NCBI RefSeq assembly: GCF_006351005.1
Contig: NZ_VENP01000036.1
Coordinates: 1 to 32,619 of the forward strand
Source of the DNA: Miniimonas arenae
GTDB lineage: Bacteria > Actinomycetota > Actinomycetes > Actinomycetales > Beutenbergiaceae
Direction of reading: 5' to 3'
DNA length: 32,619 nucleotides
Shown: positions 761-15,501 of the stretch, piece by piece
Layout of the letters: each line of letters begins with the position of its first letter
How positions within the stretch are numbered: position 1 is the stretch's first letter
Program-made: the position numbers and the translations under genes
Notes under the pieces: model-generated
What the model was told of the DNA's origin: nothing
Database searches by the model: none
What the model saw: the letters and a program-made list of their open reading frames with translations, nothing else

Positions 761-1026
761 CGCCGCGTCGCGCCGCGGCGGGCAGGTCGGAGGACGTCCT
801 CCCACGACTCCGGCTCGAGCCCGTTCTTCGCAGAGGGCCCGGCAGACGTCTCGAGTTGGAACGCGCCGGCGAGGGCGTCCGACCGGACGACGTCCCAGAA
901 CGCCTCACGCTCGCGGGCGGCGATGGCTCGCTCGACCACGGCGGCGATGCTCGAGCCGTCGTGCGCCGCCAGCGCAGCCAGGCGGTCGCGGAGCTCCTGT
1001 GGGACGCGGATCGTCGTCGAGGTCAC
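757..1026 (-). CDS. Ribbon-helix-helix antitoxin partner of the MazF-like toxin
   Basis: The 89-residue protein starts with TTIRVPQELRDRLAALAA and then SSIAAVVERAI, a classic ribbon-helix-helix DNA-binding segment (beta strand plus two helices) at residues 4-38. The C-terminal half is more polar, ends in an Arg-rich tail and would be the toxin-binding part. In this class the antitoxin represses its own operon and neutralises the toxin. The start is a GTG at 1026: a TATCAT -10 box lies 6 bases upstream, and no Shine-Dalgarno sequence is visible, so the mRNA may be leaderless. The stop overlaps the toxin start by 4 bases. Confidence 0.8.
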   Translation of the reverse strand: MTSTTIRVPQELRDRLAALAAHDGSSIAAVVERAIAAREREAFWDVVRSDALAGAFQLETSAGPSAKNGLEPESWEDVLRPARRGATRR

Positions 1027-1032
1027 CCGGCA

Positions 1033-1038
1033 ATGATA
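1033..1038 (-). promoter_or_regulatory. -10 box of the toxin-antitoxin operon
   Basis: On the minus strand TATCAT (5 of 6 matches to TATAAT) is followed by 6 bases and then the GTG of the antitoxin. An imperfect palindrome, TACATATTCGTA on the minus strand (8 of 12 symmetric), lies just upstream and could be the autoregulatory operator. No clear -35 box is seen. Confidence 0.45.
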
Positions 1039-1126
1039 CGAATATGTAGACGACTCCCTCTACCAGCAGGCTGCGCTCGTTGCGTTGCTCGCTCGGGACG
1101 CGACGTCACGCCGCACGTCGACGTCT

Positions 1127-1138
1127 CCAATAGATTGG
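1127..1138. promoter_or_regulatory. Short perfect inverted repeat with an embedded -10-like box upstream of the helicase gene
   Basis: CCAATAGATTGG is a perfect 5-base inverted repeat around AG. It contains TAGATT, a plausible -10 box for the helicase gene 65 bases downstream. It is AT-rich compared with its surroundings. Whether it is an operator, a promoter or chance is not decidable by eye. Confidence 0.3.
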
Positions 1139-1200
1139 CTGACGTCGCCGTGGGAGGGGTGCGCGTGACGGGGCAACTAAAAGCAGCGCAGGGAGGCCCG

Positions 1201-4200
1201 ATGGAGTGGACGTTCGACGCCAACCCCGCCGAGACCGTCCTCGCCCTCGAGGCCACCCGCATGCAGCAGGCTGCGCTGTTCGACCCGATGCTCGCCGTCG
1301 CCACCAGCAAGGTGGACCCCCTGCCGCACCAGATCCGCGCTGTCTACGGCGAGCTGCTTCCGAAGCCCGGCCCGCTGCGATTTCTCCTCGCGGACGACCC
1401 CGGCGCCGGCAAGACGACCATGGCCGGCCTCTACCTCAAGGAGCTGCTGCTCCGGGGCGACGTGCGCCGTTGCCTGATCGTCGCGCCCGGCGGCCTGGTG
1501 GACCAGTGGCAGGAGGAGCTCGCGGAGCGGTTCGACCTCGAGGCGACCATCCTCTCCCGCGCCCTCGCGGACGAGTCAGCCCACGGCAACCCGTTCGGCG
1601 ACCCCGCCGACCCAACCCAGGCACCCCTGATCCTCGTCGCGCGGATGGACCAGCTCTCCCGCGACGAGGCCTGGCTCGCTATCTCGAAGGCAGCGAGTGG
1701 GACCTCGTCGTGGTGGACGAGGCGCACCGGATGTCCGCCACGTACTCGGGCGGCGAGCTGACCCGCACGTTGCGCTACCGGCTCGGCCAGCTCCTCGGCT
1801 CGATCACCCGCCACCTCCTGCTCATGACGGCCACGCCGCACGCGGGCAAGGAAGAGGACTTCCAGGCGTTCCTCGCACTGCTGGACCCGGACCGCTTCGA
1901 GGGCGCCTACCGCCGCGGCGTCCACCGCGCCGACTACTCGGGCCTCATGCGGCGCATGCTCAAGGAGGATCTGCTCACGTTCGAGGGTCGAAGCCTCTTC
2001 CCCGAGCGGATCGCCACCACCGTGCCGTACGAACTCACCGCCGCGGAGCAGACCCTGTACGAGGAGGTCACGCGGTACGTCCGCGAGCAGATGAACCTCG
2101 CCGATCGCGTCGCGGCCGAGGGTGATGCCCGACGACGTACCACCGTCGGCTTCGCCCTTACCGTGCTGCAGCGTCGCCTCGCCTCCAGCCCGGCGGCGAT
2201 CCACGAGAGCCTAAGGCGCCGTTCCGAGCGGCTGCGCGCCCGCCGGACCGAGCTCTCGAGGCTCGGCGGCGTGCTGGAGGAGATCCACCACGCTGAGCTC
2301 GCCGTCGTCGACTCCACCCGCGTGACGCGGCTCTGGGAGGACCCGGAGGAGGTCGACGTCGAGGAGACCGAGGCCCTCGAGGAGCAGCTGCTCGACTCGG
2401 CGACGGCGGCACGCACGGTCGCCGAGCTCGACGTCGAGCTCGCGGTTCTCGATGAGCTCACCGCACTCGCGGCGCAGGTCCGCGCGAGCGGGACGGACCG
2501 GAAGTGGAGTCAGCTGCGCGGTCTCGTGCTGAACGCGGGGGCGCGCAAGCTCATCGTCTTCACCGAGCACCGGGACACGCTGACCTACCTCACGGACCGG
2601 ATCGCCACGGTGCTGGGGGACGCCTCCGCCGTCGTCGCGATCGACGGCGGGACGCGCCGGAGCGAGCGCCTTGCCGTCCGCGAGCGGTTCACTCACGACC
2701 CGACGTGCCGCATCCTCGTCGCGACCGACGCCGCGGGTGAGGGGCTGAACCTGCAGGCTGCGCACCTCATGGTGAACTACGACCTGCCGTGGAACCCGAA
2801 CCGGCTCGAGCAGCGGTTCGGCCGGATCCACCGGATCGGCCAGCGCGAGGTGTGTCGGCTGTGGAACCTGGTGGCCTCCAACACCCGTGAGGGCCAGGTC
2901 TTCGAGCGCCTGCTGACGAAGATCGAGGAGCAGCGCACGGCGTACGGCGGCAAGGTGTTCGACGTGCTCGGCGAGCAGGCGTTCGGCGAGCGTCCGTTGC
3001 GCGAGCTGCTCCTCGAGGCGGTGCGGTACGGCGAGGACCCGGCGGTACGTGCCCGCCTGGACCAGGTGATCGACGCGAGCGTGGCGCACGGTCTCGCGGA
3101 CCTCGTGCGCGAGCGGTCGCTTGCCACGCCGGAGATCTCCCTCGCCGATCTGCACGCGCTGCGCGCGGAGATGGACGAGGCACGGGCGCGGCGGCTCCAG
3201 CCGCACTACGTCGGCCGGTTCTTCGTGCACGCATTCCGCGCGGCGGGCGGATCGATCCATCCGCGAGAGTCGGGTCGGTTCGAGATCACGCACGTGCCGT
3301 CGAACCTCCGGCTGGCCCGCGTGTCGCCTCGCTACGCCCGAGTCACGTTCGACCCGGCCACGGAGCGTGCGGAAGCCGAGGTCCTCGCGCCTGGGCACCC
3401 ACTGTTCGACGCTCTCGTGGCCGAGACCCTGCGCCGCACCGCCCACACGATCCGGCGGGGCGCCGTGCTCCTCGACCCCGATCCCGGTGCCTCGGCCCGC
3501 CTGATCGTGGCGGTTGCCGAGGAGCTGCACGACGGCGAGGATGCGATGGTCTCGAAGCGCCACTCGTACGTGGCGATCGACGGGGACGGCGGGCGGCTCG
3601 CGGGCCCGGCGCCGCATCTGGACCTGCTAGACCCGACGGACCCGGCCGCGGGCGTCGACCTGCGACGGCTGGCCGACGTCGTCGCAGCCACGCTGTCGCA
3701 GAGCTGGGCGGCACGCGTCGCGGGGTCCGCCCTGGACTGGTCGCGCGAGCACGGCCTGACGACCCACCGTGCGGAGGTCCAGCGCCGCGTTGCCCGCAGT
3801 TCGCTGCACGCGGCCGCGACCTGGGTCGGCATCGCGATCGGCGTCACCGCGACGGTCATTCTGTGGGGGTTGTGGGAGCTTCGGAGCCGACGCGATCGGC
3901 GCCAGGAGCTGCACCGGGCCTGGTGGGACGGCCGGGCTACTGGTCGTGTCGAGTTGCGGGCGGAGATGCGGGCCGAGTTGCGGGCAGAGATGCGGGCCGC
4001 GGCGCCGCCTCCCGTGCCGGATTCTGCACCTCGGCCGCCTGCGACCACCGCGGTCTCACCCGCTGTCAAACCCGCTCCTGCAGCGCCTCCACCACAGCTC
4101 TCCGCCTTGTCGACGGCCACCGATCCGACGCCATCTGCGCCGCTTCGGCCGACATCGCCGCCGAACAGGCGAACGGCGGTCGAACCGCACATCGTGACGC

Positions 4201-4778
4201 GTACGCGCGAGCCCAGCACGACTGCGCTCCGGGACGACTTCGCATCACGGCGACGGCAGTGGTCCACGGCAGAGACGTCACGCGCGCGTGAGCTGTGGGA
4301 AAGCGGCGAGACGGTGGAGAGCGTCGCGCTCGTGATGCGGATCGATCGGTTCGACGTGGCCGAGCATCTTGCCAGCCACTACTACCAGGTCCAGGGGCGC
4401 ATCGGACAGGACGTGAGCCGACCACGCTACGGGCTCCGATACGAGCAGTGGGAGCTCCGCGCGATGGATCGCTTCGGACCGGCTGGCGCGACGTTCGACG
4501 AGCTCGTTGCTCGGCTCGAGCGAGACCGGCTCGGAGTGGCGATGCGCATGCTCGATCGGGGCGTCGGGCGCCCCGGCTGGCGCGAGGCGGAGCCCACGCC
4601 GCGTACTCCTCGCCCAGACGCCGAACGGCGAGTCGTGATCTTTGCCACCGCACCGGAACCTGCTTTGCGACATGCGCGCTCGACCTCACGCCGTCGGCCG
4701 GCCGCTTCCCCATCGAGGATCTGTCCGACATGCCGCATCGAGCTACCAGCCACCGGAGTCTGCGACCACTGCTCGTGA
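1201..4778 (+). pseudogene. SNF2-like helicase (DISARM DrmD-like), frameshifted and with an unrelated C-terminal tail
   Basis: The ATG at 1201 has a good ribosome-binding site (AGGGAGG, 5 bases upstream). Residues 61-73 hold the Walker A motif FLLADDPGAGKTT. The frame then breaks near 1680: RMDQLSRDEAWLA is in one frame and YLEGSEWDLVVVDEAHRMS in the next, so one base (mod 3) is missing between the ATP-binding and DEAH motifs. The second frame carries LLLMTATPH, the helicase C domain and motif VI (QRFGRIHRIGQ), up to about residue 865. Homologues of this SNF2-like family are expected to go on with a charged coiled region and often DUF3883. Here the protein instead enters a membrane helix (WVGIAIGVTATVILWGLW), a Glu/Arg repeat, a Pro-rich linker, two helix-turn-helix-like segments (from WSTAET, ~1019) and a zinc ribbon (CPTC...GVCDHC). 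Family homology is clear; kinship to DrmD specifically is likely but unproven, and no other DISARM gene is nearby. Probably a defence-gene remnant unless the frameshift is an assembly error. Confidence 0.75.
3951..3998 (+). repeat. 24-base tandem repeat, two copies, inside the helicase tail
   Basis: Two 24-base units differ at a single base, and each is made of two similar 12-base halves (GAGTTGCGGGCG and GAGATGCGGGCC types). They encode ELRAEMRA twice, directly after the predicted membrane helix, probably as a short charged helix. Confidence 0.7.
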
Positions 4779-4837
4779 GGGAGTCTCGGGTGGTGCCCGC
4801 ACGACTCTGCCGGACGACGGCTCGGGCAGCGCCGAGC

Positions 4838-4855
4838 CGCAGCCCTGTGGCTGCG
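4838..4855 (+). terminator. Possible transcription terminator hairpin after the helicase gene
   Basis: CGCAGCC and GGCTGCG form a perfect 7-base stem around a CTGT loop, 60 bases after the helicase stop. There is no T-run, as is common in actinobacteria. The rest of 4779-5064 shows no gene I can support on either strand. Confidence 0.35.
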
Positions 4856-5064
4856 CACATCGGAACTGCTCCGAGCCGCGCCCCGTCCGCGGAGCATCGC
4901 GGGGCGGCGAATCGGCGCTTCTCCGCGCCTCACACCCCACCCGGCGGACACAACGCGAGGTCGACCACAGCCACAGCCCTGTCACGAAGCCTTGTCGGGT
5001 CGGAGTCCGTCGGCGAGCGGCGCACGGCCGCATCTCGTGCTCGAGCGCTGGGTGGACACGCGGA

Positions 5065-5898
5065 TCACTCGGGCTGCTCGGACGCGGGGCCGCGGATCAG
5101 GGCAGCCAGCGTTGCCGTCACGAGCGAGCGGCACATCTCGTCGGGGGGATCGCGCTCGGCCATGGCGGCCAGCGTCGTCGCGCCGCAGATGACCACGAGA
5201 TCGCCGAGCGCGACGGACCATCGAGACTCGACGTACTCGGCGCTCGCCGTCCCCACCCGCGACACGAGGCGCCACCGGTTGTCGACCACCGTGGCGCTCG
5301 CCGGAACGTACAGACCGAGCTCTGCGGGCGAGGGCTGAGTCACGACCGACGTGCCGCGGAACCCGGGCGAGAACCTGCCTTCGCCGCGGGGGGTCGGCGC
5401 GACGTCGAACGTGGGGTCCGCGGGCGACAGGCCGGCCTGCGGATCGGTCCAGGCGGCGTGGTCGACAGCGGCCTCGTCCGGGCTGGCGAACTGGAGGATC
5501 GAGAGGCCGATCGCCGGAGTGAGCCAGATGCCGCCCTCCGCGAACGGCGTGCTCCAGTCGCCGTCGTCGGACTCGGGCGGGTCGTCCACCGTGGCGAGCC
5601 CCACCCGTCCGCCGACGTACGCGACGGCGAGGGGCGTCGGGGACTCGACGGGAAGGTCCGCCTCGTCGGCTTCGTCGTCGCCGCACTCGGCCGCGCCCGG
5701 GCACCGCAGGACGTCGACGAGACCGGAGGGCAGCTCGTCGTCGGTCGGCAGCGCGGGCTCGAGGTCGGCGAGCGTCCATGTTCGCAGCGTCGTCGCCGGC
5801 CCGAGCGAGGTCTGCCGTGCCTGTTGCTCACCGCCCGCGCACCCGGTGGCGGCGAGCGCAGCGATGAGCACGAGTATCGTGGTGTCAAAACGCCTCAT
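5065..5898 (-). CDS. Putative secreted lipoprotein of unknown function
   Basis: The 277-residue product begins MRRFDTTILVLIAALAATGC, a short basic start, a hydrophobic stretch and a lipobox (LAATGC) with the modified cysteine at residue 20. It should therefore be exported and anchored to the outer face of the membrane. The mature part is acidic, with several Pro/Glu/Asp-rich stretches and a DELPSGLVDVLRCPGAAEC segment holding two cysteines that could form a disulphide. A repeated theme of ATVVDNRWRLVSRVG and SRWSVALGDLVVICGATT suggests a beta-rich fold near the C-terminus. I do not recognise a domain. A TACTGT box lies 8 bases before the ATG. The gene stands alone between the helicase remnant and the VapBC pair. 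Confidence 0.75.
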   Translation of the reverse strand: MRRFDTTILVLIAALAATGCAGGEQQARQTSLGPATTLRTWTLADLEPALPTDDELPSGLVDVLRCPGAAECGDDEADEADLPVESPTPLAVAYVGGRVGLATVDDPPESDDGDWSTPFAEGGIWLTPAIGLSILQFASPDEAAVDHAAWTDPQAGLSPADPTFDVAPTPRGEGRFSPGFRGTSVVTQPSPAELGLYVPASATVVDNRWRLVSRVGTASAEYVESRWSVALGDLVVICGATTLAAMAERDPPDEMCRSLVTATLAALIRGPASEQPE

Positions 5899-6486: not shown

Positions 6487-6719
6487 GGCGTCGAGATCCC
6501 GTAGGAGCGGATGATCACGTCGGAGGGGTCGACGTCGGACACGAGGCCGTGTCCGGCGACGGTCGGGAAGTGGAAGTCGATCGGCGGCGCGGCAGTGCGG
6601 CGATCGAGCTCGGCGGTGACCCCTGAGATGACCAGCTCTCGCAGCGTCGTGCGGTGCTCGTGAGCGACGGCGCGGGCGCGTCGCGCGAGCTCGTCCGGGA
6701 TGTCGATCGTGGTCTTCAC
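6483..6719 (-). CDS. VapB-like antitoxin with ribbon-helix-helix N-terminus
   Basis: The 78-residue protein begins VKTTIDIPDELARRARAVAH and THR-rich TTLRELVISGVTAEL, the usual VapB-type ribbon-helix-helix segment (residues 1-40). The C-terminal part (PPIDFHFPTVAGHGLVSDVD) is likely the toxin-blocking arm. The GTG at 6719 is chosen because a TACCAT box lies 6 bases upstream; an ATG slightly upstream is followed at once by a stop and cannot be used. Expected role: neutralise the PIN toxin encoded next and repress the shared promoter, which faces the jetA promoter region. Confidence 0.82.
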   Translation of the reverse strand: MKTTIDIPDELARRARAVAHEHRTTLRELVISGVTAELDRRTAAPPIDFHFPTVAGHGLVSDVDPSDVIIRSYGISTP

Positions 6720-6725
6720 ACCCCC

Positions 6726-6731
6726 ATGGTA
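6726..6731 (-). promoter_or_regulatory. -10 box of the vapBC-like operon
   Basis: TACCAT on the minus strand is followed by GGGGGT and the GTG start, fitting the leaderless arrangement seen for other genes here. The 190-base gap to jetA therefore holds two divergent promoters; for jetA a weak TACCTT at 6867-6872 is the only -10 candidate I see. Confidence 0.4.
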
Positions 6732-6908
6732 GGCCGGACCCGTACTCCCGCATCGGCATCGCGGCGAGCCGTATCGTGGGAGTGGGTGTGGTTGGTGCCG
6801 AGGCAGCTCACGCACGGAGGTACGCACGGCGGCGCGAGCTTCGTCCTCGATGTCAGGGGCAGCGGTTACCTTGACCGAGTCGGAACGGAGCGAGCGATGG
6901 AGGGCGAG

Positions 6909-8378
6909 ATGAGCGGCACCGCGGTGCGACTCGCGGCTCTGGAGCTGCGCCGTGTTCGAGACACCGAGCACCACCCCGGGTGGGCGCTCATCCGGGCCGA
7001 GAACGCCCCCGTCGCCGCGGCGATCCTCGGCACGTACCTCGCGGGGGACGTGCGGCGTCGGCCGGCCGCCGAGCTGGCCGAGCTGGTCGAGAGTGAGCTC
7101 GACGAGCTGCGCGAGGCTGGCTTCGACCTCCCACGTACCGCCCATGCCTACCTGGCCGAGTGGCGCGCCCAAGGACTGCTGATCCGCCGCGCTGCCGACG
7201 AGTCCCGGACGGAGACCTATGAGCTGACCGCCGAGGCGCTGGGGGCCCTTCGCTTCCTCGACCAGCTCCGCACGCCTCGGCAGGCCGCGACCCAGTCCCG
7301 CCTCGCCACTATCTCCGCTGCGCTGCGGTCGCTCGCCGTCGACTCGGACCCCGACGTGACGGTCCGGCTCACCGCCCTCGAGGAGGAGCGCGCGCGGCTG
7401 GACGAGCGCATCGCGCGCCTGCGCTCGGGCGAGGAACCCGTCGTGGACCGCGCGGCCGCGATCGAGCGTGCGCGGGACGTCGTGCAGCTCGCCGAGGAGG
7501 TGCCGGCCGACTTCGCTCGCGTTCGCACCGAGCTCGACGGCGTGAACCGCAGTTTGCGGGAGTCGATCCTCGACGGCGACACGGTGCAGGGCAGGGTGCT
7601 CGCGGAGGTCTTCCGCGGCGTCGACCTCATCGCCGAGTCGAACGCCGGGCGGACGTTCGCCGCCTTCGCCGAGCTCGTGCTCGACGCCGAGGCCGGCGCC
7701 GCGTTCGCGGACGCGGTGGGCCAGGTGCTCGACCGTGAGTTCGCTCGCGAGCTGAGCCCCGCGCAACGACGCTTCCTGCGCGGACTCCTTCCGGCTCTGG
7801 TCGACGCGAGCCTCGAGGTGCAGGTCACCATGGCCGCCTTCGCCCGCAGTCTGCGCCGGTTCGTGCACTCCCAGGACTACCTCAGCGACCGCGTGCTGCG
7901 CCGCGAGCTCACGCAGACGCTGGCCGCGGCCCTCCCCGCCGCCGCCACGACGCGACCGTGGGCGCCGTCGGGCATCGAGCTGTCGCTCACCTCGGTGCCC
8001 CTCGCAAGCGTCGGCGCCATCCAGCTGTACGACCCACAGGAGTCCGAGGTGAGCGGCGACGTGGAGGTGCACGAGGACACCGAGGTGGACCTCGACGCGT
8101 TGCGCGCGCTCGCCCGCGAGACCGAGATCGACATGGCCGAGCTGCGCGCGGCCGTCAACGACGCGCTGGCCTTCGCGCGCGACGTCACCATCGCGGAGGT
8201 GCTCGACCGGCACGGCGCCACCCAGGGCGTTGCGAGCGTGGTGGGACTCCTCGCGCTCGCCGCACGGCACGGCGTGGCGCATCCCGAGGCGCGCGAACGG
8301 GTCGAGTGGACGTCCGTGAGCGGAGTTCCGCGAGAGGCGCGCATTCCTGTCCACACCTTCACCGGGAGGGTTCCGTGA
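6909..8378 (+). CDS. jetA: Wadjet JetA (DUF3375 family), MukF/kleisin-like subunit
   Basis: The 489-residue protein is DUF3375-like: an N-terminal winged-helix-type region (TYLAGDVRRRPAAELAELVE, then GLLIRRAADESRTETYELT and FLDQLRTPR), a helical middle part (residues ~130-330) and a C-terminal region with YDPQESEVSGDVEV. In type I Wadjet systems JetA is the kleisin-like subunit that bridges the heads of the SMC-like JetC. Two ATGs are possible: 6897 and 6909. I chose 6909 because GGAGGG lies 4 bases before it. The stop overlaps the jetB GTG by 4 bases. It is the first of four tightly coupled genes in the standard jetABCD order. Length fits the family and no defect is seen. Confidence 0.93.
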   Translation: MSGTAVRLAALELRRVRDTEHHPGWALIRAENAPVAAAILGTYLAGDVRRRPAAELAELVESELDELREAGFDLPRTAHAYLAEWRAQGLLIRRAADESRTETYELTAEALGALRFLDQLRTPRQAATQSRLATISAALRSLAVDSDPDVTVRLTALEEERARLDERIARLRSGEEPVVDRAAAIERARDVVQLAEEVPADFARVRTELDGVNRSLRESILDGDTVQGRVLAEVFRGVDLIAESNAGRTFAAFAELVLDAEAGAAFADAVGQVLDREFARELSPAQRRFLRGLLPALVDASLEVQVTMAAFARSLRRFVHSQDYLSDRVLRRELTQTLAAALPAAATTRPWAPSGIELSLTSVPLASVGAIQLYDPQESEVSGDVEVHEDTEVDLDALRALARETEIDMAELRAAVNDALAFARDVTIAEVLDRHGATQGVASVVGLLALAARHGVAHPEARERVEWTSVSGVPREARIPVHTFTGRVP

Positions 8379-9169
8379 CCGACACGACCTGGGGGCGCGT
8401 CGCTCCGCCGCCCGACGGCGCGCCCGCCGACGCGGCACCCGATCGCACCACGGAGGCGTTCGAGCTCGCCGACTCCTCACGGCCTGGGCTGTGGCCGGGC
8501 GACCGCGGGAGCCTCGACGCTCCGTCGCGGCGCGCGCTGCTCGCGCTGCTGCGCGGCCCGTACCTCTCCGCCGATCGCCACGGCGACCTCTGGAAGGCCC
8601 TGCTCCGTGACACCGACGCGATCGTCGCGCGCCTGAACGACGTCTACTGCGACCTGGTCGTCGACATCGACGTGGGCGTGGCGTTCGTCCGCAACGTCGA
8701 GCTGCCCGACGGCGGGGCACCCCGCGCGGTGCGCACGGCGCCGCTGACGTTCCTCGACACCGCGATGCTCCTCGTGCTGCGCCAGCACTTCCTGGCGAGC
8801 GACGGCGCAGACCGCGTGATCGTGGGAAAGGACGAGGTCGCCGAGCAGCTCGACGTGTACCGCGGGGCGATGGGCCGCGACGAGTCCGACTTCGCCCGGC
8901 GCGTCAACGCCTCCTGGACGAACATGGACAAGCACGGCTTCACGCAGCGCACCGACGTCGAGGGTCGCGTGGAGATCTCGCCGCTGCTGCGCATCATCGT
9001 CGGGCCCGAGCAGGTCGCGGCCGTGCGGGCGAGCTATGAGCGTATGGCGGCGGGCGGCGGGCCGGCCGAGACGGAGGTCGACCGCGAGGGGGACCCCCGG
9101 CCCGGCGGCGCCAGCAGCGAGGACGCAGGCGGCGGGGTCGACGTGAGCGAGACCGAGGAGGCCTCATGA
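8375..9169 (+). CDS. jetB: Wadjet JetB (DUF4194 family), MukE/KITE-like subunit
   Basis: The 264-residue protein has the DUF4194 pattern: ALLRGPYLSADRHGDLWKAL at the start of the domain (~residue 52), then IDVGVAFVRNVELPDG, a leucine-rich helix (FLDTAMLLVLRQHFL), and a C-terminal WTNMDKHGFTQR...VEISPLLRIIVGPEQV, which is a winged-helix-like end. In Wadjet, JetB binds the kleisin JetA, as MukE does MukF. The first ~45 residues are a Pro/Ala-rich tail of low complexity. The GTG at 8375 overlaps the jetA stop (GTGA), with GGGAGGG just upstream; the stop overlaps the jetC ATG (ATGA). Translational coupling probably fixes subunit ratios. Confidence 0.93.
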   Translation: MTDTTWGRVAPPPDGAPADAAPDRTTEAFELADSSRPGLWPGDRGSLDAPSRRALLALLRGPYLSADRHGDLWKALLRDTDAIVARLNDVYCDLVVDIDVGVAFVRNVELPDGGAPRAVRTAPLTFLDTAMLLVLRQHFLASDGADRVIVGKDEVAEQLDVYRGAMGRDESDFARRVNASWTNMDKHGFTQRTDVEGRVEISPLLRIIVGPEQVAAVRASYERMAAGGGPAETEVDREGDPRPGGASSEDAGGGVDVSETEEAS

Positions 9170-12100
9170 CCAGCGGGAGCGACGCCGTCGTGCACCCCGG
9201 GCAGTGGCGACTGAGCAGGGTCCAGGTGCTCGACTGGGGCACCTTCTCGGGCCTGCACACGGTGGACGTGGCCCGTCAGGGCCACCTGTTCGCGGGCGAG
9301 TCCGGTTCGGGCAAGTCCTCGCTCCTCGATGCGATCGCCACCGTCCTCACGCCGGCGAGGTGGCTCGCGTACAACCTCGCGGCGCAGGATGCGGGCGCGC
9401 AGCGACGCTCCGACCGCAGTCTCGTCACCTACGTCCGCGGCGCGTGGCGCCGTGAGTCCGACCTGGAGTCCGGCGGGACCACCGCGACGTACCTGCGCAC
9501 GGGTGCCACGTGGAGCGGGATCCTCCTGCGCTACGAGAACGGCCAGGGCGACGTGGTCTCGTTGGTGCGACTCATGCACGCCCGCTCGACGGCGAGCTCA
9601 CCTGCCGACGTCCGCCAGCTCCACCTCATCGTGCGCCGCGAGGTGGGGCTGCTCGACTTCGGCGAGCACGTGCGCCACGGGATCGACGTGCGTCGCCTCA
9701 AGCAGGCGTTCGACGCCCCGGGTGACACCGTGACCGATCAGCAGACCGTCTTCACGCAGCGCCTGCGCCGGGTCCTCGGGATCGGGCAGGGGAGCATCGC
9801 GCGCGACAGCGAGAACGCCCTCCTCCTGCTCCACCGCACGCAGGCGGCGCGCAACCTCGGGAGCCTCGACCACCTCTTCCGCACGTTCATGCTGGACGAG
9901 CCCCGGACGTTCGCGATGTCGGACAACGCGGTGGAGCAGTTCGACAACCTCGACCAGGCGCACCAGCGCGTCGTCGAGGCGCGACGCCAGGTCGAGCTGC
10001 TGCGCGTGGCCGAGGGTCCGGCCACCGCGTTCGAGCGGGCGACGAGCGAGGCCGCGACAGCGCACGAGCTGCTCGACGAGCTGGACTCCTTCCACGACCG
10101 CCGCATCGCCGAGCTGCTCGAACGCAGCATCGCCGAGGACACCGCATTGCGTGCGACCCTGGCGGCCGCCATGGACGAGGCCACTCGGTCCGCGGTGCTG
10201 GCCGAGCGAGAGCTCACCGCGGCGCGCCGCGAGGTCGACGACCGAGGCGGGATCGGCGTCGCGCTGGCGCAACGGCGCGTGACCGAGGAGGCCGACGCCG
10301 CGGACCGCGTTCGGCAGCTCCACGAGCGCACCGCCAGCGCGCTCGCGTCCGTCGCGATCCCGATGCCCGACTCCTCGGCGGCGCTCGCCGAGCTGCAGGC
10401 CACGGCCCGGCGCACGCAGGACCAGGCCACCGAGGCGAAACGACGCACCGACCCCGACCTGTACGACGCGCACGACGCGCGAGCTGCGGCGCAGCGCGCG
10501 GTGGTCGAGCTCGAGGGCGAGCTCGAGGCGCTGCGCGGCCGGCGCAGCAACATGGAGCCGCGGCTCCTGGCGACGCGCACCTGGCTCGCGGACGTCCTCG
10601 GAGTCGCCGAGTCGGCGCTGCCGTTCGCGGGCGAGCTGCTGGACGTGGCACCCGAGCACGCAATCTGGCGAGGCGCGATCGAACGCGTGCTGCGCCCGCT
10701 CGCGACCACCCTGCTCGTGCGCGAGGAGCACCTGGACCGCGTCGTGCGCGCGGTCGAGGAGAGGCATCTGGGGACGAGGCTCGTGTACCAGGCCGTGCCG
10801 GCGCACGTCGGAGGGCCGCCGCCCGTGGCCACGGCCGACTCGCTGGTGCACCGGCTGAGCCTCGCACCGCACCCCGCGTCGGGCTGGCTCGCCGTCGAGC
10901 TCGCCGAGCGCTACGACTACGCCTGCGTGGCCACGCCCGAGGAGCTGCGCCGCGTGCGCCGCGGGATCACCGTCGCCGGTCAGGTCAAGGGCGGTCGAGG
11001 GCGGTACGAGAAGGACGACCGCCGCGAGGTGGGTGACCGCAGGTCCTGGGTGCTGGGCTCGGACAACGAGGAGAAGCGCGAGGCCGTTCACGCCGCGCTC
11101 GTCCAGGCGCGCGAGGAGCTCGCGCGCGCAACGGAGGTGGTGGCTGCGCTCCAGGGCCGCGCGGAGCAGCAGACCCGTCGGATCACCGTGCTCGCGGGCG
11201 TGGTCGGGCTTCGGTGGCCCGAGCTCGATCGTGACGGTGCCGCAGCCCGGGTGCGGGACGCCGAGGCCGACCTGGACCGCCTCGTCCAGGGCAACGCCGA
11301 CCTCGCCACGGCGAGGGAGTGGGTCGAGCAGGCTCGGGCCGCGCAGGAGCGCGCCGCGTCCGCGCGCGATGACGCCGCCGGTGAGCTCGCCGTCGTGCAC
11401 CACCGCCTCGCGGAGCGTGAGGGGGAGCTGCGGGTGGTCCGGGCGCGGGTGGCTGGGACCGCGGGGAACCTCGGGAGTACCGACGGCGTGGGCGGGTCTG
11501 TGGCCGGTCGGGACCCGGAGGCGCGTGCGGCGCTGTGGGCGTTGCTCGACGAGCGGTATCGCGCGATCCGTCGCAAGCAGACCCTCGACGGCGTGCGCGA
11601 GTCCCAGGCCAAGGTGCTGAAGGCGCTCACGGACGAACGCGTCGTGGCTGAACGCGAGGCACGCGACGCCGCGAGCCGCTACGAGGACGTCCTGCGGCGG
11701 ATCCGCTCCGAGTTCCCCGCCCTCGCTCCCGACCTCACCGTCTCGGTCGGGGACCGCGCCGGGTGGCGGCGCGTGCGCGAGCAGGTCGAGGGCACGGGTC
11801 TGCCCGAGCACGAGCAACGCTTCGCCGACCTCCTGCGAACCCAGTCCCGCCAGCTCGTGGCCCAGCTCCTCAACGAGCTGCGCGGTGCCCTGCGCGCGGT
11901 CCGCGAGCGGATCGACCCCGTCAACGCCTCGCTCGCGCGCTCACCGTTCGACCGGGACCGGCACCTGCGCATCGTGCCGAGCGAACGACGCTCCCAGGAC
12001 GTCAACGCGTTCCTCGAGGACCTGCGCGCCGTCGCCGACGGCTCGTGGGAGGGCGAGGACCTCGCGGCCGCCGAGGTGCGCTTCGCGGTGCTGCGCCGAC

Positions 12101-12615
12101 TCATGACCCGCCTGGGATCGGGCGAGGCGGCGGATCAGGCGTGGCGCCGCCGGTGCCTCGACACCCGCGAGCACGTCACGTTCCTCGCCCAGGAGATCGA
12201 TCTCGACGGCGTGGTGGTCAACGTGCACGACTCCGGCGAGGGCCTGTCGGGGGGCCAGAAGCAGAAGCTCGTGGTGTTCTGCCTCGCCGCGGCCCTGCGC
12301 TACCAGCTGACCGACGGCGAGGAGGCCGTGCCCCGGTACGGGACGATCGTGCTCGACGAGGCATTCGACAAGGCCGACTCCGCCTACACCCGGATGGCGA
12401 TGGACGTGTTCGTCGAGTTCGGCTTCCAGATGGTGCTCGCGACGCCCATGAAGCTGCTGCAGACGATCGAGGAGTACGTCGGTGCCATCACGTACGTGAC
12501 GTGCCGGGACTTCAAGGAGTCGCAGGTCGGGACGGTGGCGATGCGCCGCCGCGAGGCACCCCCGCGCGTCGTCGCAGCGGGGCCCCTCGAGCCGAGCGCC
12601 CCGGTGGCCGGGTGA
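9166..12615 (+). CDS. jetC: Wadjet JetC, SMC/MukB-like ATPase
   Basis: This 1149-residue protein has the split ATPase head of SMC-like proteins. Walker A is GESGSGKSS at residues 44-52, in the context FAGESGSGKSSLLDAI. The signature motif LSGGQKQK is at 1027-1034 and Walker B IVLDEAFDKAD at about 1061-1071. Between them are long Ala/Arg/Glu-rich coiled coils (~290-450 and ~630-900) around a probable hinge at ~475-560 (LGVAESALPFAGELLDV). JetC forms the ATP-driven loop-extruding motor of the complex and senses the size of circular DNA by extrusion (known for the family). Start and stop overlap jetB and jetD by 4 bases. All catalytic motifs are intact. Confidence 0.95.
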   Translation: MTSGSDAVVHPGQWRLSRVQVLDWGTFSGLHTVDVARQGHLFAGESGSGKSSLLDAIATVLTPARWLAYNLAAQDAGAQRRSDRSLVTYVRGAWRRESDLESGGTTATYLRTGATWSGILLRYENGQGDVVSLVRLMHARSTASSPADVRQLHLIVRREVGLLDFGEHVRHGIDVRRLKQAFDAPGDTVTDQQTVFTQRLRRVLGIGQGSIARDSENALLLLHRTQAARNLGSLDHLFRTFMLDEPRTFAMSDNAVEQFDNLDQAHQRVVEARRQVELLRVAEGPATAFERATSEAATAHELLDELDSFHDRRIAELLERSIAEDTALRATLAAAMDEATRSAVLAERELTAARREVDDRGGIGVALAQRRVTEEADAADRVRQLHERTASALASVAIPMPDSSAALAELQATARRTQDQATEAKRRTDPDLYDAHDARAAAQRAVVELEGELEALRGRRSNMEPRLLATRTWLADVLGVAESALPFAGELLDVAPEHAIWRGAIERVLRPLATTLLVREEHLDRVVRAVEERHLGTRLVYQAVPAHVGGPPPVATADSLVHRLSLAPHPASGWLAVELAERYDYACVATPEELRRVRRGITVAGQVKGGRGRYEKDDRREVGDRRSWVLGSDNEEKREAVHAALVQAREELARATEVVAALQGRAEQQTRRITVLAGVVGLRWPELDRDGAAARVRDAEADLDRLVQGNADLATAREWVEQARAAQERAASARDDAAGELAVVHHRLAEREGELRVVRARVAGTAGNLGSTDGVGGSVAGRDPEARAALWALLDERYRAIRRKQTLDGVRESQAKVLKALTDERVVAEREARDAASRYEDVLRRIRSEFPALAPDLTVSVGDRAGWRRVREQVEGTGLPEHEQRFADLLRTQSRQLVAQLLNELRGALRAVRERIDPVNASLARSPFDRDRHLRIVPSERRSQDVNAFLEDLRAVADGSWEGEDLAAAEVRFAVLRRLMTRLGSGEAADQAWRRRCLDTREHVTFLAQEIDLDGVVVNVHDSGEGLSGGQKQKLVVFCLAAALRYQLTDGEEAVPRYGTIVLDEAFDKADSAYTRMAMDVFVEFGFQMVLATPMKLLQTIEEYVGAITYVTCRDFKESQVGTVAMRRREAPPRVVAAGPLEPSAPVAG

Positions 12616-13874
12616 GCGACTCCCCTCGCGCAGGGACGCGCCGCGCCGGCGACTGGGTAACGCCGTCGGACGTGCGCGCCGTTGCGCAGCGCCGCTACCG
12701 GCGCGACCACGCGACCTGGGCGGCCGGCGGGCGGTCGGCGCGCACCGCCCCCGACGTCATCGACGTCCCGCTGCACCCGCCGAGCGAGCGCGTGGCGCTC
12801 GCCGATCTGCCGGGCGCGACGGCGTGGGCCGAGTCCTGGCGCGCCGCGCACCCCGCGATCGACGTGACGTGGCAGGAGCGACGATGGTCGGCCGTCGGGA
12901 ACCAGCGCGTGCCCGTGCGTGCCCGCGTCGACGGGGCGGACGCGATCGCCGACCTCGCGGGAGAGGGAGCGCGCTGGCGGCGTCTCGAACGGCGCCTCGA
13001 CGGACTAAGGGCCCACTGGTTCGCGCCGGGCGGCTCGAGCGACTCCGACGGGCCGAGCGTCGCCGGGCCTGCCGGGCTGGTCGGGGCACTGCGCCGGGTC
13101 GCCGACGACGTGGCGGGCCTGGACGAGGTCGACCTGGCGCGGGTGGTCACGGTGGTCGACTGGGTGCGCGACCATCCCGAGTCCGGCGCCTACGTCCGGT
13201 CGTTGCCCGTGCGGGGGATCGACTCCAAGTGGCTCGAGGGGCACCGGGCCGTCGTCGAGCGGCTGCACGCTGGGGTCACCGGACGGTCCGAGCTGGGTCT
13301 GCGTCGTCAGAACGACCTGATCCGCATCCGCATCCTGGACGAGGCGGTGCGGCCGGGCGGGATCAGCGAGCTCGCGCTGCCGCTCGCGGAGCTGGCTGCG
13401 GTGCGCTGGCCGATCGCGCCGCAGGCTGCCCTGATCCTCGAGAACGTCGAGTCGCTGGTCGCACTTCCGGACATCCCCGGAGCTGTCGCGGTGCACGGGG
13501 CGGGCCACGCCGTCGGGCGGCTCCGGGACGTGCCCTGGTTGGGCGAGGTGCCGCTCGCGTACTGGGGCGACCTCGACACCCACGGCTTCCGCGCGCTGCA
13601 CCACGCGCGTGAGTCCCTCCCGCGGGTCGAGTCGGTGCTGATGGACGCCGAGACGCTCGACGCCCACCGCGACCTGTGGGGGACCGAACCGGCACCCCAC
13701 ACCGGTGAGCTCCCGCTGCTGACTCCGGACGAGCGGACCGTGCTCGAGGCGTTGCGCGAACACGGCAACGTCCGGCTCGAGCAGGAGCGGATCGCCTGGG
13801 CATACGCCCTGGCGAGACTGCGCGAGCGGCTGGAGGTGCTCACCGGCGAGCAACGACGGACCGGGTACACCTAG
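12612..13874 (+). CDS. jetD: Wadjet JetD, Toprim nuclease (DUF3322/DUF2220)
   Basis: The 420-residue protein has an N-terminal DUF3322-type region (GDWVTPSDVRAVAQRRY, later ERLHAGVTGRSELGLRRQND) and a C-terminal DUF2220 Toprim region. The expected metal-binding residues are visible: a glutamate in LILENVESL (about residue 277) and the D-x-D of YWGDLDTHGF (about 320 and 322). JetD is the topoisomerase VI-like subunit that cuts plasmid DNA after JetABC has extruded it. The GTG at 12612 overlaps the jetC stop. Its TAG (13872-13874) shares CTAG with the TAG of the convergent downstream gene, so no room is left for a terminator. The protein looks complete and active. Confidence 0.94.
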   Translation: MSDSPRAGTRRAGDWVTPSDVRAVAQRRYRRDHATWAAGGRSARTAPDVIDVPLHPPSERVALADLPGATAWAESWRAAHPAIDVTWQERRWSAVGNQRVPVRARVDGADAIADLAGEGARWRRLERRLDGLRAHWFAPGGSSDSDGPSVAGPAGLVGALRRVADDVAGLDEVDLARVVTVVDWVRDHPESGAYVRSLPVRGIDSKWLEGHRAVVERLHAGVTGRSELGLRRQNDLIRIRILDEAVRPGGISELALPLAELAAVRWPIAPQAALILENVESLVALPDIPGAVAVHGAGHAVGRLRDVPWLGEVPLAYWGDLDTHGFRALHHARESLPRVESVLMDAETLDAHRDLWGTEPAPHTGELPLLTPDERTVLEALREHGNVRLEQERIAWAYALARLRERLEVLTGEQRRTGYT

Positions 13875-14575
13875 GCGGTCGGCCGCCCCTGCCAGGTGCA
13901 CACGCAGGCCTCGTTGCCCTCGGGGTCCGCCAGCACCCAGAACGCCGGCGCCGCAGCGTCGGAGACGAGCCGCCCACCCGCCTCGAGCGCCGCAGCGATC
14001 CGCGGCTCGGCCTCGTCGTGGCCGACCGAGACGTCGAGGTGGATGCGGTTGCGCTGCGGCCGGGGCGCGTCCATCTGCTGGAACCAGTAGGCCGGGCCGA
14101 GCCCGTCCGGGTCGACCAGCTCCACGTCCAGCTCGCCGTCGGCCTCCTCGACGTGCGCGTCGTAGCCCAGGACCGCGGCCCAGAACGGCCACACGGCCGC
14201 GATGTCGAGCGCGTCGATGGCGACCTCCTGCACCGACATGCGCGGCGCGGTGGGCACCAGGCCCATCTCCTCGGCGATCACGCTCACCCGCTCGGCCAGC
14301 TCGACGTCGCGCTCGGTGAGGCCGCGCGCGTCGTGGCTGGTGGTGGTCACCGTGACCCGGCCCCAGCGCAGGTGCAGCTCGGGGTGGTGGTGCAGCTCCT
14401 GCGCGAGCTCGGTCACCGCACCCGCGAACTCCACCAGCAGGAGGTAGCTGTCGGACGTGAAGGTGGCGCGCAGGGTGCGCAGCAGCACACGCCAGTGCCG
14501 CTCGTCGACCGACGCCGTCACGTCCGCGTGCCCGAGTCTCGGTGGTCGGCTCCTGGCCGGCCGCCCGTCAGTCAC
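13871..14575 (-). CDS. Pterin-4a-carbinolamine dehydratase domain fused to a VOC (glyoxalase-like) domain
   Basis: The 234-residue protein has two parts. Residues ~20-105 resemble pterin-4a-carbinolamine dehydratases, with the HHPELHLRWGRVTVTTTSHD segment and the preceding FAGAVTELAQEL helix; the HH..H cluster is the usual catalytic signature. Residues ~115-234 form a VOC/glyoxalase-like domain (VAIDALDIAAVWPFWAAVLGY, RNRIHLDVSV, VLADPEGNEACVC). The substrate is unknown; related fusions are common in actinobacteria. The GTG at 14575 overlaps the end of the upstream gene by 8 bases (GTGACTGA), so the pair is probably one operon. It converges on jetD with overlapping stop codons. Confidence 0.8.
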   Translation of the reverse strand: MTDGRPARSRPPRLGHADVTASVDERHWRVLLRTLRATFTSDSYLLLVEFAGAVTELAQELHHHPELHLRWGRVTVTTTSHDARGLTERDVELAERVSVIAEEMGLVPTAPRMSVQEVAIDALDIAAVWPFWAAVLGYDAHVEEADGELDVELVDPDGLGPAYWFQQMDAPRPQRNRIHLDVSVGHDEAEPRIAAALEAGGRLVSDAAAPAFWVLADPEGNEACVCTWQGRPTA

Positions 14576-15194
14576 AGCTGCCGCACACGCCGCTGACCGG
14601 CAGCTGCATGAAGCACGACGGGCAGATCGCCGGTGGCTCCTCGGCGCGGGCCGCGGCGGCCGCCTTCGCCGCGCGCGCCGCGGCCCGCTCCGACTTCTCC
14701 CGGTGCGGGCGAGGGCCCTCGCCGTACCGGTCCACCCACGCCGTCGTCATCCGCGGCTGCGCGTCGTCCGGGACGTCGTCGGCGTACAGGCGGTAGCACG
14801 TGAGCCGGTCGGCGGCCGCTGCGTTCTGGCGCGCGACGTCGTCGGTGAAGCCCCCGAGGTGGCCGTGCGTGATGTACCCGTCGCTCACGCTGCCGTCCGC
14901 GTGCACCACGAGCGAGGTGAGAGGCGGCCGGCCGTCGGTCGAGGTCGCACGCTGCACCGGGCTGAGCACCTTGCCCATCCAGTTGCCCGACAGCATGCGG
15001 GTGCGATACCCCGTCCGCTCGAACAGCTCGTGCGCGAGATCGCCGTACAGGACGTAGCCGCCGTAGCGTCCGGCGACCTCCTCCAGCAGGGGAACTGTCG
15101 CCTCCACCCACGCCTGCACGGCGACGTCGAACTCGACCTGGACCTCTGGCGCGGCGTCGTGCCACGTACCCGGACCCTGGGGCGTCGTCGTCAT
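14568..15194 (-). CDS. Actinobacterial protein of unknown function with C-terminal zinc ribbon
   Basis: The product is about 208 residues. A compact N-terminal domain (YGGYVLYGDLAHELFERTGY, SGNWMGKVLSPVQRAT, PPLTSLVVHADGSVSDGY, ADRLTCYRLYAD) is followed by a long Lys/Arg/Ala/Glu helix and a C-terminal zinc ribbon, CPSCFMQLPVSGVCGSC. I recognise the N-terminal part as a recurrent actinobacterial family without known function; ribbon and basic helix suggest nucleic-acid binding (inference). Two ATGs compete: 15200, only 2 bases after GGGAGG, and 15194, 8 bases after it; the second is better spaced. The ribbon closely matches the one ending the broken helicase at 4722-4775. The end overlaps the next gene by 8 bases. 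Confidence 0.75.
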   Translation of the reverse strand: MTTTPQGPGTWHDAAPEVQVEFDVAVQAWVEATVPLLEEVAGRYGGYVLYGDLAHELFERTGYRTRMLSGNWMGKVLSPVQRATSTDGRPPLTSLVVHADGSVSDGYITHGHLGGFTDDVARQNAAAADRLTCYRLYADDVPDDAQPRMTTAWVDRYGEGPRPHREKSERAAARAAKAAAAARAEEPPAICPSCFMQLPVSGVCGSCD

Positions 15195-15501
15195 CGTCAT
15201 CGCCTCCCGCGTCGGACCTCGAAGGGTTCCCGCCATTCCAGCAGCAGAACGGCCGATCCGCCAGATCGACCGTCCACCCGGCGAGTCACAGACCGATCCG
15301 GGGCGAAGTCTTGACGCCGACCGGGCCCGAGGTTGACTATCGGCGCCAGGTCTAGACCTTCGTCTAGGTAGTTCTGCTGTCTTTCCGCGGAAATCTCGTG
15401 TTGACTGGCCTTGGTTGCCGGACAACTCACGGTGCTGACTTCAAGCGCCGGCCGCACAGCACAGAAACCGCTCCCCGAAGACTCGCCAGGAGGTGAACCC
15501 G
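15195..15501. other. Non-coding region between divergent genes
   Basis: These ~300 bases separate two divergent genes and hold no ORF I believe. They contain a cluster of CTAG sites (described separately) and possible -35/-10 pairs such as TTGACG at 15311 with GACTAT at 15335 for the plus strand, all weak. The AGGAGGT at 15488-15494 belongs to the next gene. Confidence 0.5.
15349..15367. promoter_or_regulatory. CTAG-containing inverted/direct repeat, candidate operator
   Basis: GGTCTAGACC is a perfect 10-base palindrome; four bases further GTCTAG appears again, so CTAGAC and GTCTAG also form a 6-base inverted repeat around CTTC. CTAG is rare in bacterial DNA, so two copies so close are notable. 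It lies about 150 bases before both divergent genes. Confidence 0.35.

Follow-up and report, generated by a model that had tools for sequence, protein, structure and literature searches.

Does a long open frame in Miniimonas arenae, one that begins as a SNF2-like helicase and ends in a zinc ribbon, encode a helicase of a new kind, or does it only give that appearance? The window analysed here, 32,619 bases long, is one whole contig of a draft assembly that totals 3,402,690 bases in 148 contigs and has a completeness rating of 99.73%. Near position 3790 the original prediction had noticed an abrupt switch from helicase to a hydrophobic helix, a Glu/Arg stretch, a Pro-rich region, an HTH-like pair and a four-cysteine ribbon just before the stop, and this description holds. 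What the switch means is a different matter. We favour, at a probability of roughly 0.78, a decaying hmaA remnant that has lost both of its ends, carries a frameshift and happens to run in frame into a portion of an unrelated gene. The apparent new architecture of helicase plus membrane helix, HTH and ribbon is very probably not real as a functional unit.

The helicase is HmaA

The best PADLOC match of the helicase in a profile search is HmaA (PDLC00659). Residues 158-865 of the frame-3 open reading frame align with positions 217-942 of the 1176 in this model (E 7.8e-250, 830 bits), and residues 2-158 of a frame-1 reading frame, counted from base 1201, align with positions 67-215; the next-ranking family, DrmD, reaches 262 bits. 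By this model the Snf2 core is present, yet it is spread across two frames. HmaA has been described as the helicase component of Hma, a candidate defence system whose three genes encode a helicase, a methyltransferase and an ATPase (PMC8565338), and which was subsequently put among the DUF499-centred BREX-related systems (PMC12839542). The Type-1 helicase of those systems is taken here to be the counterpart of the present HmaA. Its architecture, as laid out in PMC12839542, comprises an N-terminal TUDOR domain, the Snf2 core, an inactive REase and an alpha+beta domain, with an active C-terminal PD-(D/E)XK nuclease in 79% of Type-1 taxa; the same paper refers to an experimental study said to confirm a phage-defence role for HmaA. 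Among solved structures, the closest by sequence to the core profile is RapA, a remote match to the helicase C-terminal lobe (E 1.2e-19, about 100 positions) that covers part of the core only.

For comparison, the second part of the helicase core was searched against the organism's own genome and related ones (n=199). A match was found in 116 of the 199, the majority being more distant helicases, and nine close HmaA relatives were chosen from this search for profiles and alignments. Each of the nine is a single uninterrupted reading frame of 1145-1273 aa between stops, and they are 46-59% identical to the second core piece over the matched part. As a broader control we used 80 HmaA loci from genome contigs, the best 80 of 532 confirmed stretches, which together with the nine close relatives make 89. 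The present gene thus resembles the HmaA/Type-1 BREX-related helicase in its Snf2 core (model positions 67-942), the second piece of which shares 48-58% identity with the nine intact relatives. It differs from an intact HmaA in being frameshifted, in lacking the N-terminal and NOV_C domains and in carrying a foreign tail, and the genome around it differs from one with an Hma system in matching neither HmaB nor HmaC.

The helicase homology changes frame at base 1671

The helicase part of the locus is made up as follows.

1201-1671, plus strand: first piece of the HmaA core, in frame 1, with the Walker A motif (DDPGAGKTT); PDLC00659 E 1.5e-62; positions 71-229 of the relatives' profile
1671, plus strand: frameshift, where the homology leaves frame 1 and continues in frame 3, zero profile positions being lost
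1671-3791, plus strand: second piece of the HmaA core, in frame 3, from the DEAH box to the region preceding the C-terminal coiled part

The original prediction read everything up to about 3790 as one SNF2-like helicase. The homology does end at about 3791, but its first ~155 residues (about 1207-1671, Walker A included) lie in frame 1 and only the remainder in frame 3, so this is not one protein. The frame-1 reading frame runs from an ATG at 1201 to a stop at 1761, with clear homology from about 1207 (WTFDANP) to 1671; the frame-3 reading frame spans 1206-4778, and its portion 1206-1670 is out of frame relative to the helicase. Several measures place the change at the same point. In hmmsearch with the core profile of the nine relatives, position 229 in frame 1 is followed by position 230 in frame 3 at base 1671. 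When the nine relatives are compared by tblastn, the frame-1 match ends at 1662-1668 in seven of nine rows and runs on to 1713 and 1746 in the remaining ones; the match resumes in frame 3 between 1662 and 1698. Codon scores, for which nine further genes from the window served as training set, rank frame +1 at the top for 1207-1670 (0.42) and frame +3 for 1683-3791 (0.39), with the other frames at 0.05 or less.

Because the homology switches frame at 1671, the Walker A motif and the DEAH box (VVDEAHRM) lie in different frames, and HmaA is not found here as one uninterrupted reading frame. With these two motifs separated in this way, no working helicase is expected. Programmed frameshifting at 1671 was considered and set aside: no slippery heptamer is seen there by eye, and the nine relatives have no frame break at this point. 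Apart from this, the second core piece is well preserved, with no stop across about 700 codons and with changes at six of the 190 columns in which the nine relatives all agree (the leave-one-out range for those nine is 1-29). Thus, unless the frameshift is a sequencing error, the decay is recent. The contig does not appear to be generally full of frame errors, since JetA-D, encoded elsewhere on it, match their models near full length, each in a single reading frame.

Both ends are missing and neither partner is found

The damage extends beyond the frameshift. A profile of the N-terminal domain of the nine relatives (about 60 residues) gives no credible match in the six frames of the window, the best having an E value of 0.69 at 23.6-24.7 kb; the absence of this domain went unnoticed in the original prediction. 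From its position we infer that it corresponds to the TUDOR domain of PMC12839542. Among the control HmaA loci (best 80 of 532) it lies in the same reading frame as the core in 77 of 80, the exceptions being one locus with the domain in another frame (L088), one whose reading frame runs off the contig (L085) and one for which none is shown (L123). The left end of the remaining homology is not perfectly sharp, as four of nine tblastn rows extend upstream of the clear start of the alignment, to 1117-1192.

The loss at the other end is larger. The relatives run about 230 residues beyond the point equivalent to 3791, and NOV_C (PF13020) was found there in all four that were scanned. The corresponding C-terminal profile has no credible match in the six frames of the window (the top hit, on the opposite strand, has E 0.33), nor did an alignment search with the C-terminal part, run without a positive control, give a match in the organism's own genome. 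In the same best 80 of 532 HmaA loci, the C-terminal domain is in the reading frame of the core in 78; of the other two, L088 again carries it in a different frame, and L100 is cut short by the end of its contig. Since the core profile was cut at the junction, its end there is so by construction, and the end of homology at about 3791 rests instead on the PADLOC match (to residue 865, model position 942 of 1176) and on the alignment of the nine relatives. The repeated exception, L088, comes from Tsukamurella sp. PLM1, in a record titled as a complete genome, and is a second disrupted hmaA, with its N- and C-terminal domains in reading frames other than that of the core.

The models for the HmaB methyltransferase and the HmaC ATPase (PDLC00660 and PDLC00662) have no match in the organism's own genome, although each search was positive in one of 14 control genomes, that of Thermotoga maritima. 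Within the fetched neighbourhood of HmaA, HmaB is present at 67 and HmaC at 42 of the 80 loci (best 80 of 532), and among the 47 of these that are at least 13.8 kb long the counts are 43 and 32. Neither partner lies in the fetched stretch at 13 of the 80 loci, or at four of the 47 long ones. About a fifth of Type-1 taxa are without a fused nuclease and a defence role has been reported for HmaA itself (both according to PMC12839542), so that absence of the nuclease or of the partners alone is not proof of decay. Even if the frameshift were a sequencing error, the gene would, as far as the searches show, be without its N-terminal domain, its nuclease-like domain and both of its partners.

The tail is unrelated to HmaA

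Beyond the junction, the frame of the second helicase piece continues into the following parts.

3795-4775, plus strand: tail with no relation to HmaA, continuing the frame of the second helicase piece and followed by a stop codon at 4776-4778
3813-3881, plus strand: hydrophobic, probably transmembrane helix, AATWVGIAIGVTATVILWGLWEL, judged from the sequence and an AlphaFold helix
3950-3999, plus strand: Glu/Arg repeat, which is a 12/24-bp tandem repeat in the DNA (Tandem Repeats Finder: period 24, 2.1 copies, 96% matches)
4011-4199, plus strand: Pro-rich stretch in which frame 3 has no coding signal (codon-position GC 0.70/0.75/0.67; codon score -0.61 in +3)
4266-4556, plus strand: two HTH-like repeats, similar to the C-terminal end of a GHKL ATPase-sigma70 protein
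4668-4775, plus strand: C-terminal zinc ribbon, ICPTCRIELPATGVCDHCS and then the stop, of the form C-x2-C...C-x2-C

Frame 3 stays open for 327 codons of tail and ends in a recognisable ribbon, so the tail is coding at least in part. Its codon score is the best of the six frames for 3795-4010 (-0.01) and for 4200-4640 (0.09), about zero in both. Over the Pro-rich part the score lies clearly below zero, as it does over the final 135 bases, where the ribbon can still be recognised. The AlphaFold model made from the single sequence is poor (mean pLDDT 54), its fairly confident parts being confined to the long initial helices and the ribbon: tail residues 2-44 are helical, with block pLDDT values of 71-91, and the last 17 residues, in the ribbon, have values of 82-83.

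The tail is not a regular part of the family. Although it was conceivable that ordinary members all carry it, tblastn with the default low-complexity filter finds no match to it at E <= 1 in any of the 89 HmaA loci (best 80 of 532 plus the nine). The junction is accordingly seen at none of these loci, and searches of genome contigs and viral contigs, which reach close relatives only, yield no relative of the tail. The reading that a defence gene has recombined with another gene, also offered by the original prediction, is thus supported, the usual C-terminal domain being kept in 78 of 80 loci and the tail found in 0 of 89. Searched apart, tail and helicase give separate hits, which points to a local fusion, as the original prediction had proposed to read such an outcome. 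No description of a helicase-tail fusion was found in the papers retrieved on Hma, on defence-island decay or on DUF499/SNF2 helicases, which does not prove that none exists.

Database searches with the tail were likewise empty against Pfam (E <= 1), PADLOC (E <= 0.01), plasmids and phages (E <= 0.01) and, by sequence, the PDB (E <= 1); a fold search with the poor model returned a meaningless best E of 2.3. A few weak profile hits were rejected, namely phrog_3356 (PHROGs, transposase; E 0.006, residues 155-189), phrog_3201 (PHROGs, tail fibre; E 0.12) and gliding_GltJ (NCBIfam; E 0.0025, 17 bits against a cut-off of 450). We also dropped the idea of a phage or plasmid gene, for which phages and plasmids (E <= 0.01) and viral contigs (close relatives only) offer no supporting match.

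The individual parts are more informative. In the family set, which holds 24 genomes (the organism's own, sole representative of its genus there, and 23 others), the ribbon of about the last 35 residues recurs at the C-ends of separate proteins in seven of the 23 other genomes (E 7.7e-7 to 3e-4), with 42-60% identity and likewise directly before the stop. A weak second copy lies in the window itself, at 14574-14684 on the minus strand (E 0.006). Judged from these sequences, the ribbon is more than a chance resemblance, as it recurs before the stop on separate proteins. Such stand-alone proteins with a C-terminal ribbon of the CPxC...CDxC type (L034-L042 and window 14571-15227, minus strand) match the last ~35 residues of the tail, and their likeness is limited to this end.

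The HTH-like part alone matches two of the 346 other genomes in the order-level set (347 scanned, the organism's own included). The better match, in G308, has an E value of 1.9e-6 for one genome of 347 searched and holds in direct comparison; the other, in G293 (E 2.4e-4), was viewed by eye only. The direct comparison sets the HTH-like pair against the C-terminus of the GHKL ATPase-sigma70 protein encoded at locus L148 and gives 29% identity over 100 columns, with E 3e-8 for that single comparison. The likeness consists of the two HTH-like repeats at the C-terminus; the L148 protein differs from the present gene in having no helicase by Pfam, and no membrane helix or ribbon was seen in it. In plasmids the HTH-like part gives one weak match (E 0.7), and the HTH-like end of the L148 protein gives none in plasmids or viral contigs. 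The membrane-helix part matches none of the 23 other family genomes. Matches to it in 15 of the 346 other order genomes (E <= 0.01, best 1.7e-4) were dropped: the 11 loci inspected, one of them empty, showed other hydrophobic or Arg-rich stretches, several with internal stop codons, and four of the 15 were left unread.

A decayed gene or a working fusion

The preferred reading combines these results. Deletion or illegitimate recombination would have fused hmaA, truncated at its 3' end, with a portion of an unrelated gene, the two being in frame by chance. That gene part would code for the membrane helix, the HTH-like pair and the zinc ribbon, and would have lost its own start. Any product made from the tail would then be a small protein started within it, for instance at the in-frame ATG at 3966, and not a membrane-bound translocase. 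The idea of a membrane-tethered DNA translocase, as first put forward for this locus, finds no support because the helicase is split between two frames, both end domains (N-terminal and nuclease-like) are lost, and HmaB and HmaC were not found.

It might still be argued that the frameshift is an assembly error and that the locus encodes a working fusion, in which membrane helix, HTH-like pair and ribbon replace the nuclease of an HmaA core to give a membrane-tethered translocase. The well-kept second core piece, with only six of 190 invariant columns changed, would suit such a protein, as would a junction that is in frame and a ribbon that is intact up to the stop. Such a fusion, however, would also have to do without the N-terminal domain; the HmaB and HmaC models have no match in the genome, the junction was found in no other genome searched, and of the four segments of the tail, two have a codon score no better than about zero and two a clearly negative one. 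We therefore regard it as quite unlikely. Still further down the scale, and highly improbable in our judgement, is the specific protein that would result if the two frames were joined by sequencing error or frameshifting: a membrane-anchored Snf2 translocase with the helix and the HTH-like/ribbon part in place of the nuclease, acting without HmaB or HmaC.

Misassembly, at 3791 or at the left end near 1200, could instead have brought two unrelated stretches together, a thought invited by a draft of 148 contigs in which the window is one whole contig. A chimera of this kind should leave its other half somewhere, unless the source lies outside the assembly, yet the missing C-terminal part was found on no other contig (in the search without a positive control) and HmaB and HmaC likewise had no match, which makes this quite unlikely. 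The tail might also be a gene in its own right, intact and lying behind the helicase remnant, that uses an internal or unusual start codon. Frame 3 being the best of six for 3795-4010 and 4200-4640, if with scores around zero, the codon-position GC and a ribbon that abuts the stop, like those of the stand-alone proteins, would all fit. Against this, there is no in-frame ATG, GTG or TTG in 3720-3869, the first such codon, a TTG at 3870, falls within the final third of the membrane helix, and no promoter-like site was found in 900-5100 when one sigma-70 consensus was used; we hold an intact tail gene to be about as improbable as misassembly.

A decayed hmaA joined to a foreign gene part thus remains our preferred explanation, and it carries a caution: in high-GC DNA, an open frame that passes through a frameshifted, truncated defence gene into unrelated sequence can mimic a new fusion protein. 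The locus also illustrates an Hma system of which a remnant of the helicase is what is left, while a seemingly complete Wadjet operon persists on the same contig.

Neighbourhood of the remnant and related loci

The Wadjet operon, of type I, occupies 6654-13874 on the plus strand, with JetA, JetB, JetC and JetD near full length against the PADLOC models. Just upstream of the helicase remnant, at 416-1026 on the minus strand, are a PemK/MazF-like toxin and a ribbon-helix-helix partner. Downstream, at 5065-5898 on the minus strand, lies a protein that looks by eye like a putative lipoprotein and has no Pfam match. Since this flanking protein was found in none of the 346 other order genomes, no empty site can be defined for a comparison of synteny. 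No convincing repeats that could explain recombination were found. There is a 14-base exact direct repeat at 1064-1077 and 1264-1277, which may be either chance or a trace of the event; its first copy lies about 140 bases beyond the left end of the remnant, its second within the remnant.

The second ribbon in the window belongs to a protein of 219 aa (14571-15227, minus strand) that ends in this tail-like zinc ribbon and has no Pfam match. Two ribbon-ending proteins occur on one contig in two of the seven family genomes that have them. Finally, the protein at L148 (3499-6804 of that locus, plus strand), from another family of the same order, unites a GHKL-type ATPase (HATPase_c_3), sigma-70 regions 1.2, 2, 3 and 4 and the HTH-like pair in a single chain, and adjoins a C5-cytosine DNA methylase. 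A sigma factor fused into what appears to be a restriction-type locus may merit a look in its own right.
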